From Chloroflexota bacterium (lineage in GTDB: Bacteria > Chloroflexota > Limnocylindria > QHBO01): DNA of 64,000 nt. The position numbers were made by a program, and so were the translations under genes. The number at the start of each line of letters is the position of its first letter. The first letter of the stretch is position 1. Shown here piece by piece: positions 49,461-53,096 of the stretch. The notes below the pieces were generated by a model. It had not been told where the DNA came from, ran no database searches, and saw only the letters and a program-made list of their open reading frames with translations. The stretch is from contig JBBDXT010000007.1 in NCBI GenBank assembly GCA_040902225.1, positions 62,001 to 126,000 on the forward strand. Direction: 5' to 3'.

Positions 49461-50111
49461 ATGGAGCCACCGCCGGTCGCCACCCGCTCGCCAGGGCTTC
49501 CGCAGGGCGAAGCGCTGACCAGTGCCGGCGTCGAGGTGCTGTTCGATGCAGCCGGTGCCCTGCGCCATGGGCACTTTCTGCTCAAGAGCGGGCGTCACTC
49601 CGACCGCTACCTCGAGAAGTTCGCCGTGCTGCAGTACCCCGCACTGGCGGTCGAGATCGGTCGGCGGCTGGCCGCCTCCCTGATCGATCGCGAACCGACC
49701 CTCGTGGTCGGACCCACCACCGGCGGCGCGCTGCTGGCCGCCGAAACGGCTCGTCAGCTGGAGGCCGCGCTGGGCCGGACCGTCCGGGGTGTGTTCGCGG
49801 AGCCGATGGAGCGGGGCGCCCGCGCGCTGCGCCGGGGCTGGCCCGTCACCGAAGCCGATCGCGTCGTCCTCGTCGACGACATCCTGACCACCGGCGCATC
49901 GCTGGCCGAGACGGTCCGCGCGGTCCGCACCGCCGGCGCGACGCCCCTGGTGGCAAGCGTGATCGTCGACCGCTCCACCGGTCCGGTCGAGATCGGCTGC
50001 CCGATCCTGTCGCTGGGCAGGATCGAGATCTCATCCTGGACGGCCGATGAATGCCCGGCCTGCGAGCGCGGCGAGCCGATCGTCAAGCCGGGCAGCAGCG
50101 CCGTCAGCTGA
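49461..50111 (+). CDS. pyrE: Orotate phosphoribosyltransferase
   Basis: 216 residues. PRPP loop RVVLVDDILTTGAS, with LLKSGRHSDRYLEKFAVLQYP and VVGPTTGGALLAAETAR. Converts orotate and PRPP to OMP. ATG 49461 follows the previous stop by five bases. The end carries a CPACERGEPI cysteine pair common in this subfamily. Converges with nnrE, overlapping by eight bases. Confidence 0.94.
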   Translation: MEPPPVATRSPGLPQGEALTSAGVEVLFDAAGALRHGHFLLKSGRHSDRYLEKFAVLQYPALAVEIGRRLAASLIDREPTLVVGPTTGGALLAAETARQLEAALGRTVRGVFAEPMERGARALRRGWPVTEADRVVLVDDILTTGASLAETVRAVRTAGATPLVASVIVDRSTGPVEIGCPILSLGRIEISSWTADECPACERGEPIVKPGSSAVS

Positions 50112-50958
50112 CGGCGGGCTCCTGCCAGTTGACCTGCGTCATTCGCGCCGGCGGAAATTCGCCGTCCGGCGGGACGATTCCCTCCTCTGCCTCCACAGGG
50201 ATGCCGATCGGCGCCACGAAGTAGCGTCCGGCCAGGCGCCGCGCCTCCGGGTCCAGCGCGAACCCGGCCTTCGCGCGGTGAAAGGTGACCGTCAGGTCGG
50301 CGACCACAACCGGATCCGAGCGGGTGCCATCGGTCAGGTCGATGCGGGTCGGCGTGTCGATGGCGACCACGCGACACGGCCGGCCGGCGGCCCGGGCGTG
50401 GGTCACGATCGCGTTGAGCAGGTCCACCGCGCTGGAGATGGGCTCCCGCAAGGGGCCGGCCGCGCCGCTGCCGAGCAGCGCGTCGATCAGCAGGCTCGCC
50501 GGTGAGAGGCGCGCCCGCAGCTGCAGCAACAGCTCCGGCGTGGGCGCGACGTAGAGTGCCAGCGAGCCGCTCGACGCCATCGCCTGCAGCACGGTCCAGT
50601 TGTGTGCGGCAGCGACGCCGCTGATGCGTGCCGGGTCGCCCACCAGCACCGCGGTCACCGCGCGCCCCGCCGAGGCCAGGCGTCGTGCGGCCACGAAGCC
50701 GTCGCCGCCGTTGTTGCCGGGGCCGCACATCACGACGGTGACCGGCGCCGGTGCAAGCGGCCCGCCCGGGCCGGTCACCGCATCGGTCATGGTGGCCAGC
50801 TCCGCCAGGGCCAGCTCGGTGACCGCCGAGCCGGCGCTCTCCATCAGGGCATCGGGTGACAGGCCAAGGCCCTGCGCCGCCTCATCGATGCGCGCCATCT
50901 CGTCGCCGCCGATGAGAACCGTCACCTCGCGCACCGGCCGTACGGCCGGATCGGTCAT
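50104..50958 (-). CDS. nnrE: NAD(P)H-hydrate epimerase (YjeF N-terminal domain)
   Basis: 284 residues, Rossmann-like YjeF_N fold without the ADP-dependent dehydratase domain. Motifs: CGPGNNGGDGFVAARRL, LLIDALLGSGAAGPL and AIDTPTRIDLTDG. It repairs damaged NADH/NADPH hydrates by interconverting the epimers. Translationally coupled (ATGA) to the cytochrome gene upstream, an unexpected partner. The dehydratase partner is not in this window. Confidence 0.9.
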   Translation of the reverse strand: MTDPAVRPVREVTVLIGGDEMARIDEAAQGLGLSPDALMESAGSAVTELALAELATMTDAVTGPGGPLAPAPVTVVMCGPGNNGGDGFVAARRLASAGRAVTAVLVGDPARISGVAAAHNWTVLQAMASSGSLALYVAPTPELLLQLRARLSPASLLIDALLGSGAAGPLREPISSAVDLLNAIVTHARAAGRPCRVVAIDTPTRIDLTDGTRSDPVVVADLTVTFHRAKAGFALDPEARRLAGRYFVAPIGIPVEAEEGIVPPDGEFPPARMTQVNWQEPAVS

Positions 50959-51404
50959 GGCAGGGTCTTCAGATACTCGACGACGGCGGCGATCTCCTCG
51001 GGGCTGAGCGTGTCACCGAAGACCGGCATGCCGCCGCGGTCGATCCCGGTCACGGCAGGATCGGTGCCGGCGATCCAGAGGTCGGCCCAGGCATCCGGAT
51101 GGTCGGTGCCCAGCTGCTGGAGGTTCTCGCTCACCGGACCGTCCTTCACGCCGTGCAGGCTGGGAAAGGTCCCCTGTCCGGCCAGGTCCGGGCCGTGACA
51201 GTTCTGGCAGCCCGCCGTCTGCATGATGGCCTGCGCGTTGAGACCCCCGGCCGATGGCTGCGGGCCGCCAATGATCGGCGGGTTCGAGCCGCTGAGATTC
51301 GTGGCGAAGAAGACCGCGCCGGCCAGGAACATGACCCCGGTCAGGCCCAAGGCCCAGCCCGGGATGCCTCGCGTCCGTGACTCGATCGGGGTGTGGACGG
51401 TCAT
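50955..51404 (-). CDS. Membrane-anchored monoheme c-type cytochrome
   Basis: 149 residues from ATG 51404. N-terminal anchor (WALGLTGVMFLAGAVFFATNL), Pro/Gly linker, then a class I cytochrome c domain with CQNCH heme site and a C-terminal MPVF methionine ligand followed by LSPEEIAAVVEYLKTL. Four bases after the oxidase-like gene and overlapping nnrE. By context it should pair with the oxidase-like protein. Confidence 0.92.
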   Translation of the reverse strand: MTVHTPIESRTRGIPGWALGLTGVMFLAGAVFFATNLSGSNPPIIGGPQPSAGGLNAQAIMQTAGCQNCHGPDLAGQGTFPSLHGVKDGPVSENLQQLGTDHPDAWADLWIAGTDPAVTGIDRGGMPVFGDTLSPEEIAAVVEYLKTLP

Positions 51405-51408
51405 CGGC

Positions 51409-52911
51409 TCACTGCGCCGCCGGCGCGGCAGCCGCGTCGCCGACAACGACCGCGTATTCGGCGCGACGGGCGCTGGTGTACATCAGGAACACGTTCAGGG
51501 CCAGCACCGCGGCTGCCAGGGCGCTCAGGCTGATCCCCGCCCCGAGCACGAGCCGGAACCAGAGGACCAACCCGTCGATCTCCTCGGCTGGCGCAGCCTG
51601 CGCCAGCAGCGAGCCATGCGCCACACCGCCAAAGATCAGCGCCAGGCCGGCCAGTCCGGCCCCGGCGAAGGCGGCCCATAGCGTCGCCTCGGCGAGCAGC
51701 GTCCCTCCCCAGTCGCGACGCAGCAGGCGAGGGAAGGCGTGATCGGCCAGGGCCAGGAACGCGAGGGTGGCCGTCCCGAGCAGCGCGAAGAGCCGGACGC
51801 CGACCCCCCATTCGGTGCTGCCGACCAGCTTGTGCACCGAGCCGAGCGAGCCGATCGCCTCGAGCAGCGCCGTGGCGGTCAGGAAGGTGAGAGCCACCAG
51901 CGCGAACGGGACCGTGCCCGGCGACAGGACGAGCGTCCAGCGTCCGCTGAGGCTGAGCAGCAGGTTGGCGACCACCAGGAAGGCAGGAATCACCAGCATG
52001 AATGTCGCCACGTTGCCGATCTGGGTGATGGCGAACGGGACCGAGACGTCAACCAGACTGGCCAGGGGCGCCAGGGTGCTCAGCCCGAGCCAGAGGAGCC
52101 AGCCGAGCATGGCCAGGCCCCAGGAGTAGAGCGGGTTGGCGGCGGCGCGTGGAATAACGTAGTACAGCGTGCCGATGGCGAGGCCGCCCAAGCACAGGGT
52201 CTCCAGGGCGCGCACATAGAAAGCGTTGGCCAACGCTTCGCCGGCTGCGGAGAGGCTGAGCACCTGCATGACGCTGAGCAGCTCCGCGAGGCCGATCAGG
52301 CCGTACAGGCCCAGCAGCGCGAGCAGCGCCACGCCGAAGTACCAGATGCTGACGTACGGGAGTTGCTGCGCGGATGCCATGACCGTGCGCCAGAACGCTC
52401 CGTTGGCAAGCAACAGGGCCAGCAGCAGCACCCCGGCCACCGGCAGCGGGAACTCCGTGAGCACGCCGGAGCCGGAGAGCTGGGGCACGTAGAGCGCCGC
52501 CAGGCCGGCCACGAGGCCCACGTTCCAGAGTGCGGCGGCGCCGGACGCCATCGTCTCGCTCACCAATCGCGTTCCCAGCAGACGAGGCGTGATGAAGAAG
52601 ATGGCTCCCAGGCCGGCATTCGCGAGCCAGCCGTAGACGAGCGAATTCCAGAAGCCGGAGGCCGTGGTGGCGGGGCTCAGCTCGAAGCTGAGCACGCCGC
52701 TGAGGGTGGGCATCTCCAGGCGCAGGGTGAGCTGGTCCGGGAGGAGCTGGTAGGCGACCCACAGCAACCCGATCCCGGTGGCGGTCAGGAACCAGAGCAG
52801 CGCGGCCACCAGGAACGCGGTCGCGGCGTTGTCCGGCTCCCTGGGAAAGATCGGGCGACGGACCTTCGGCGGCTGGTCGTACGGTCGCAGCTTCTTGGGG
52901 TTCACGGCCAT
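51409..52911 (-). CDS. Heme-copper-oxidase (CcoN)-like membrane protein lacking all cofactor ligands
   Basis: 500 residues and about 12-14 hydrophobic spans, aligned with cbb3 subunit I. YYVIPRAAANPLYSWGLA corresponds to CcoN YYF-PKAAN-PVYS, and LGSVHKLVGSTEW to the SVNALSHYTDW region. Yet there are only three histidines in the protein (about residues 360, 391 and 430), none at ligand positions. The low-spin heme site reads SPATTASGF, the CuB sites read VRALETLCLG and STLAPLASL, and the heme pair (HVH) reads GVRLF. So it should bind neither heme nor CuB in the usual way. The ATG at 52911 starts MAVNPKKLRPY; the longer frame covers the tRNA. Confidence 0.82.
   Translation of the reverse strand: MAVNPKKLRPYDQPPKVRRPIFPREPDNAATAFLVAALLWFLTATGIGLLWVAYQLLPDQLTLRLEMPTLSGVLSFELSPATTASGFWNSLVYGWLANAGLGAIFFITPRLLGTRLVSETMASGAAALWNVGLVAGLAALYVPQLSGSGVLTEFPLPVAGVLLLALLLANGAFWRTVMASAQQLPYVSIWYFGVALLALLGLYGLIGLAELLSVMQVLSLSAAGEALANAFYVRALETLCLGGLAIGTLYYVIPRAAANPLYSWGLAMLGWLLWLGLSTLAPLASLVDVSVPFAITQIGNVATFMLVIPAFLVVANLLLSLSGRWTLVLSPGTVPFALVALTFLTATALLEAIGSLGSVHKLVGSTEWGVGVRLFALLGTATLAFLALADHAFPRLLRRDWGGTLLAEATLWAAFAGAGLAGLALIFGGVAHGSLLAQAAPAEEIDGLVLWFRLVLGAGISLSALAAAVLALNVFLMYTSARRAEYAVVVGDAAAAPAAQ

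Positions 52912-53021: not shown

Positions 53022-53096
<75 letters not shown>

Follow-up and report, generated by a model that had tools for sequence, protein, structure and literature searches.

A relative of cbb3 oxidase subunit I that lacks all cofactor ligands is maintained beside a membrane cytochrome c in a Chloroflexota family

Heme-copper oxidase subunit I is normally defined by six His ligands. Here we describe a CcoN-like protein of a Chloroflexota family in which loss of these ligands is complete, while the gene is under purifying selection and strictly paired with a cytochrome c gene. In Verrucomicrobiota, ligands were lost recurrently from related proteins with the surrounding operon kept. 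The protein may serve as a scaffold for the cytochrome.

Results

The locus was analyzed in a 64,000-nucleotide stretch of a Chloroflexota genome (contig JBBDXT010000007.1, positions 62,001 to 126,000), referred to as the window. Three minus-strand genes, encoding the CcoN-like protein, a cytochrome c and NnrE, follow each other almost without gaps across window positions 50104-52911. The features are listed below; replaced ligands were assigned by alignment and are given in P. stutzeri numbering.

51409..52911, minus strand: CcoN-like, ligand-free heme-copper oxidase subunit I homologue (500 aa, 12 TM)
52651..52653, minus strand: F87, replacing the low-spin heme ligand His60
52210..52212, minus strand: R234, replacing the CuB ligand His207 (Arg in 18/20 homologues)
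52057..52062, minus strand: A284-S285, replacing the CuB ligands His257-His258
51796..51798, minus strand: V372, replacing the high-spin heme ligand His345
51790..51792, minus strand: L374, replacing the low-spin heme ligand His347
50955..51404, minus strand: membrane-anchored monoheme cytochrome c (149 aa; N-terminal TM, CxxCH, Met in GMPVF)
51195..51209, minus strand: heme c attachment motif CQNCH within the cytochrome c
50104..50958, minus strand: nnrE (YjeF_N, NAD(P)H-hydrate epimerase), conserved third gene of the operon

The ATG of the cytochrome c gene is located 4 bases past the CcoN-like stop codon, and its own stop overlaps the nnrE start (ATGA). The encoded cytochrome matches Pfam Cytochrom_C (E = 1.2e-10). 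Immediately upstream of the CcoN-like gene, on the other strand, is a tRNA gene (53022-53093, plus strand; Rfam tRNA, 68.8 bits).

The CcoN-like protein matches Pfam COX1 with an E value of 1.8e-21 (77 bits versus a cut-off of 34.8), and this homology together with the 12-helix subunit I fold places it in the heme-copper oxidase superfamily. Its nearest solved sequences are cbb3 CcoN chains. With the NCBIfam ccoN equivalog model it scored 72.8 bits versus a cut-off of 583, and thus it does not qualify as CcoN itself. Alignment to P. stutzeri and R. capsulatus CcoN was used to read the ligand columns. In the window protein, the low-spin heme His pair (H60, H347) is replaced by F87 and L374, the CuB His trio (H207, H257, H258) by R234, A284 and S285, and the proximal His of the high-spin heme (H345) by V372. 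Each of these ligands is absent throughout the Chloroflexota family: no ligand His was seen in any of the 20 copies, two of which (L021 and L022) end at a contig edge before the H60 column. Tyr251, which is cross-linked to a CuB His, corresponds to S278 in the window protein and is also missing in all 20 copies. O2 or NO reduction is excluded because the protein cannot bind hemes b and b3 or CuB; that neither reaction proceeds without these cofactors is established knowledge of these enzymes.

The window protein contains exactly three His residues, at positions 360, 391 and 432. H391 is the only family-invariant His (20/20) and aligns to the non-ligand CcoN position 364; H360 and H432 are not conserved. 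Placement of any of the three at a ligand site was thus rejected. To see which other positions persist, we used as reference the 53 positions that are invariant in 28 ligand-bearing relatives. The Chloroflexota family retains 0 of the 7 catalytic positions versus 24 of the 46 others (Fisher p = 0.012). Most of the retained positions are structural, and Gly, Pro, Trp, Tyr and Asn predominate among them (W24, W102, Y223/224, P227, P265, N289, G391, G403); the noncatalytic positions that were lost include T215, S240, Y317, H337 and W203.

An AlphaFold2 model of the CcoN-like protein, built from a 32-sequence alignment, had a pLDDT of 87.6 and a pTM of 0.89. The seven top PDB matches in Foldseek were all cbb3 CcoN chains (TM 0.78-0.80, rmsd 2.8-4.1 Å), followed by NOR, ba3 and aa3 structures. 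Since such models may lean on training data, we took the sequence alignment as the main evidence. These results agree with most of what a first-pass annotation had read from the DNA alone. Its coordinates for the CcoN-like and cytochrome c open reading frames were correct, and the reported loss of the low-spin heme His, the CuB His and the heme pair was borne out at all six ligand columns. It had counted three off-site His residues, rightly so, except that it placed the last one at position 430. The alignment that it had named as a refutation, with these His at true ligand positions, was not what we obtained. That the fold-defining segments are kept is consistent with the predicted structure, for which cbb3 CcoN was the best PDB match (TM about 0.79).

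The CcoN-like gene was detected in 20 of the 22 genomes of the window's Chloroflexota family. The two genomes without it (G019 and G021) are incomplete drafts, and it was found in no searched genome from other families of the same class. Independent genomes carry full-length family copies that share as little as about 39% identity. Nei-Gojobori counts gave dN/dS values of 0.156 (window versus L025) and 0.129 (L028 versus L036), which support purifying selection on the gene. The named records with family members are Chloroflexi bins. A record binned as Steroidobacteraceae (L029, JAICUY010000050.1) also contains a gene that clearly belongs to the Chloroflexota family and has the same cytochrome c and nnrE neighbors; either the name of this record is wrong or the bin is mixed, probably.

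A gene for a monoheme membrane cytochrome c directly follows the CcoN-like gene in 20/20 homologues, and the CxxCH motif and the axial Met (in a GMP or SMP motif) are kept in all 20. Among named loci with enough sequence, the cytochrome c gene is next in 18/18 and nnrE is third in 16/16. No ccoNO(Q)P neighborhood is present; one cytochrome c gene and nnrE adjoin in all loci with enough sequence. The first-pass annotation had described the gene as long, intact and coupled to a membrane cytochrome c and to nnrE, as the dN/dS values and both pairings confirm, and it had asked whether ligand-free CcoN proteins always sit next to a cytochrome c. For the Chloroflexota family, they do (20/20). Despite the conserved order, nnrE probably has no functional link to the other two genes, since it is a housekeeping repair gene and no mechanism for such a link was seen.

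The electron-transport chain of the host was then reconstructed from the genome sequence. The window genome encodes an aa3-type oxidase, the subunit II of which ends in a cupredoxin domain, with a CtaA-CtaB fusion and CtaG nearby. This subunit II (L091:8429-9598, G000:C4) carries the fused C-terminal domain in a plastocyanin-like form, and the 606-aa fusion (L091:4599-6416, G000:C4) joins heme A synthase (CtaA) to heme O synthase (CtaB). A bc-type complex with a Rieske protein, split cytochrome b and diheme cytochrome c is also encoded. PF00034 cytochromes number only two in the window genome, which is near complete: one is paired with the CcoN-like protein, and the other belongs to the bc complex as its diheme subunit. 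Across the family, a strong aa3-type COX1 was found in 21/22 genomes and cytochrome b in 19/22. The ACIII marker ActD was found in 0/22, and thus ACIII was ruled out as a partner in this family. The CcoN-like/cytochrome pair is not located beside the bc or aa3 genes.

A genome scan with the Chloroflexota family alignment also returned Opitutaceae proteins that lack at least five of the six ligands. Close relatives of these proteins were present in 48 of the 241 Verrucomicrobiota genomes searched (E below 1e-74). At the ligand columns, 35 distinct sequences could be compared: 15 have all six His, 15 have exactly one and 5 have none. The single remaining His is mostly H258; it is H207 in L102-L104 and H60 in L101. 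For an Opitutaceae ligand-poor protein, the predicted model had a pLDDT of 78.4, and CcoN was again the best match (TM 0.82-0.85).

The Verrucomicrobiota genes are part of an operon with the order actB-C-D-E-F-small-ccoN-ccoO-cytc, which is identical in ligand-full and ligand-poor members. ACIII genes (actB-C-D-E-F) were present in all 20 extracted neighborhoods, one of which is on a contig that stops inside actC. They are mostly followed by a small gene, then ccoN and a gene for a FixO/CcoO-like monoheme cytochrome, and another cytochrome c is encoded in all but one. Operons with unchanged order and a CcoN-like subunit that lacks five or six ligands include L055, L044, L047 and L124-L137. The CcoO CxxCH motif is kept in 23/23 sequences read; judged from these motifs, loss of the b-hemes and CuB did not extend to the c-heme. 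In five Opitutaceae genomes tested, one A-family COX1 each was found, and complete cbb3 was found in four. The CcoO-like proteins showed two further differences. In some ligand-poor operons (L047, L124, L125, L128 and L129), His or Arg stands in place of the Met of the MP-x-[YFH]-x-F motif, presumably the axial heme ligand. Ligand-full members retain the LG[ST]MRxGPD motif and the Tyr of CxYCH, and ligand-poor ones have for the most part lost both.

For the phylogenetic tree, the ligand columns were removed. In it, the window family forms one clade (100/100), sister to the entire verrucomicrobial ACIII-linked clade (97/89). The great length of its branch (1.88 changes per site) makes this sister relation uncertain. 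Of the ligand-poor Verrucomicrobiota sequences, 19 fall in one clade, and L108 is separate and nested among ligand-full sequences. This lone ligand-free protein (L137/L108, G505:C1:2662000-2676000) apparently reflects a recent, separate ligand loss. A single origin for the window family and the 19 sequences was rejected (p-AU 0.006), as was a single clade of the 19 and L108 (p-AU 0.004), with the long branches as a caveat. Had long-branch attraction acted, it would have drawn such groups toward each other rather than separating them. Under the assumption that a lost His is never regained, the minimum number of losses is 3 for H257, H345, H347 and Y251 and 5-6 for H60, H207 and H258. The tree thus needs at least three independent ligand losses.

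Discussion

We propose that the CcoN-like protein is a cofactor-free relative of cbb3 subunit I, incapable of O2 reduction, that would act as a membrane scaffold, holding the membrane-anchored monoheme cytochrome c encoded next to it. The cytochrome would pass electrons from a quinol-oxidizing complex to a separate heme-copper oxidase. The quinol-oxidizing complex would be the bc complex in Chloroflexota and ACIII in Verrucomicrobiota, and in Chloroflexota the receiving oxidase would be aa3. In Verrucomicrobiota, the module is already part of the ACIII operon, so that, with its ligands lost, a terminal oxidase may become a conduit for electrons. We infer that the protein would form a physical complex with the cytochrome, that electrons would be handed over, and that the pair would dock to complex III and/or the oxidase. 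This is the simplest reading of what is kept, namely the fold and the c-heme of the neighbor. We consider a cofactor-free scaffold, which would anchor a cytochrome c linking complex III to a distinct oxidase, to be the best explanation, with the balance of probability tipping slightly in its favor. It is supported by the complete ligand loss beside retained structural positions, the purifying selection, the predicted fold, the strict pairing with an intact cytochrome c, the unchanged Verrucomicrobiota operon with its conserved CcoO CxxCH, the recurrent losses, the scarcity of PF00034 cytochromes in the window genome, and the presence of another oxidase and complex III in most family genomes (aa3 COX1 in 21/22, cytochrome b in 19/22). 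Against it count the uncertain placement of the long family branch, the distance of the Chloroflexota pair from the bc and aa3 genes, that the Chloroflexota partner cytochrome is not CcoO-like and that the cupredoxin domain of aa3 subunit II may already serve as electron entry.

The first-pass annotation had offered three roles: cytochrome platform, which fits best, assembly factor and proton channel. As an assembly or stability factor for aa3, the bc complex or cytochrome c, the protein would be an oxidase-derived template or chaperone with no standing electron-transfer role. The missing cofactor, the strict pairing with one cytochrome c gene and the status as a core gene of a family that always has aa3 are all compatible with this idea. 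However, the gene is unlinked to ctaA/ctaB/ctaG or cox genes, which are grouped together elsewhere, and the ligand-poor members in Verrucomicrobiota hold the exact structural place of the oxidase subunit in a respiratory operon. We therefore consider such a factor unlikely, while still worth keeping in mind.

Binding of a heme, quinone or metal through new ligands, by which the protein would still be a redox enzyme, is suggested by the invariant H391 (20/20) and by the Arg at the CuB His207 position (18/20). However, H391 is the sole conserved His and is located at the end of TM10, outside the core. Conserved Cys and Met residues are lacking, as is another conserved His, and therefore a bis-His heme or Cu-His3 site cannot be built. 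A quinone may still be bound, but on the whole an unrecognized cofactor is improbable. Conduction of protons or ions, either powered by redox changes in the attached cytochrome or serving as a regulated leak, would suit a multihelix, channel-bearing fold in which a small number of buried polar residues are conserved (N98, N130, R234, T303 and N316). But the CcoN residues T215, S240, Y251, Y317, H337 and W203 are all lost in the family, and the membrane part has no acidic residue conserved at 90%. The proton channel role is weakened in particular because T215, S240, Y251 and Y317, which we take to be part of the cbb3 proton path, are among the lost positions, and we regard ion conduction as quite improbable. 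A decaying or misassembled, functionless gene would explain why every catalytic residue is gone, and the sources are mostly metagenome bins, but the copies stay full length across independent genomes even at about 39% identity, dN/dS values are 0.13-0.16, and the operon is tight with an intact cytochrome partner. This makes such a gene hardly credible, and a pseudogene was rejected.

Among the closest known systems is cbb3 CcoN (PDB 3mk7, 8smr, 6xkw and 9g6b). It and the CcoN-like protein share the 12-helix fold (TM 0.78-0.80), homology across 400 residues, half of the structural invariants and a c-type cytochrome partner. In contrast to CcoN, the CcoN-like protein has neither the six heme b, heme b3 and CuB ligands nor the cross-linking Tyr, its partner is neither CcoO nor CcoP, and its score is far under the NCBIfam ccoN cut-off. 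The ACIII-linked CcoN-like proteins of Verrucomicrobiota resemble it in that a membrane cytochrome c follows, 20 of the 35 distinct sequences have at most one of the six ligands, and Opitutaceae genomes also contain a complete A-family oxidase. They differ in that their genes lie in ACIII operons, which also encode a FixO/CcoO-like subunit and one more cytochrome c, in the 15 relatives that are fully liganded, and in that the tree places their loss apart from that in the Chloroflexota family.

In cytochrome cy systems and III-IV supercomplexes, the link between complex III and oxidase is a c-heme held at the membrane (PMC8361435). A bridge of this kind, as in the R. capsulatus CIII2CIV complex with cy and the F. 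johnsoniae ACIII-cytochrome oxidase, is what we propose here. To our knowledge, no such system uses a heme-less oxidase subunit I as anchor. NrfD-like subunits are membrane subunits free of redox cofactors that tie redox subunits to the membrane (PMC8076601). They are an unrelated, quinone-binding family, and the likeness to the CcoN-like protein would concern tethering only. Our literature search, which had most subscription journals outside its reach, found no ligand-free heme-copper subunit I family. We know of no described subunit I subfamily that is kept by selection without the six His ligands. The first-pass annotation's remark that there is no described counterpart thus stands as far as described families are concerned, but ligand-poor CcoN-like proteins also exist in Verrucomicrobiota.

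The Verrucomicrobiota series is possibly a more general finding than the window family. It comprises intermediate states (six ligands, one or none) inside an unchanged ACIII operon, and this makes testable what an oxidase core contributes besides catalysis. The accessible part of a review treats the Opitutaceae ACIII-linked gene as a C-type oxidase, with no mention of ligand loss there (PMC8498564). Judged by its ligand columns, the ligand-poor gene in the genomes read here cannot be an oxidase. Counting such genes as high-affinity C-type oxidases may overstate the oxygen-reducing capacity (cf. PMC8498564, for Opitutaceae with ACIII).

Selected maintenance beside an intact cytochrome c, together with the same loss arising separately in other bacteria, suggests that an oxidase core can be reused as a metal-free electron-transfer scaffold. 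Metal-free oxidase cores may then be a recurrent, undescribed class of respiratory subunit, a generalization for and against which we see the chances as evenly divided: at least three lineages would have made a CcoN-type enzyme into a heme-less scaffold for a c-type cytochrome, keeping the complex III operon where present, and some genes counted as terminal oxidases would be electron-transfer scaffolds.
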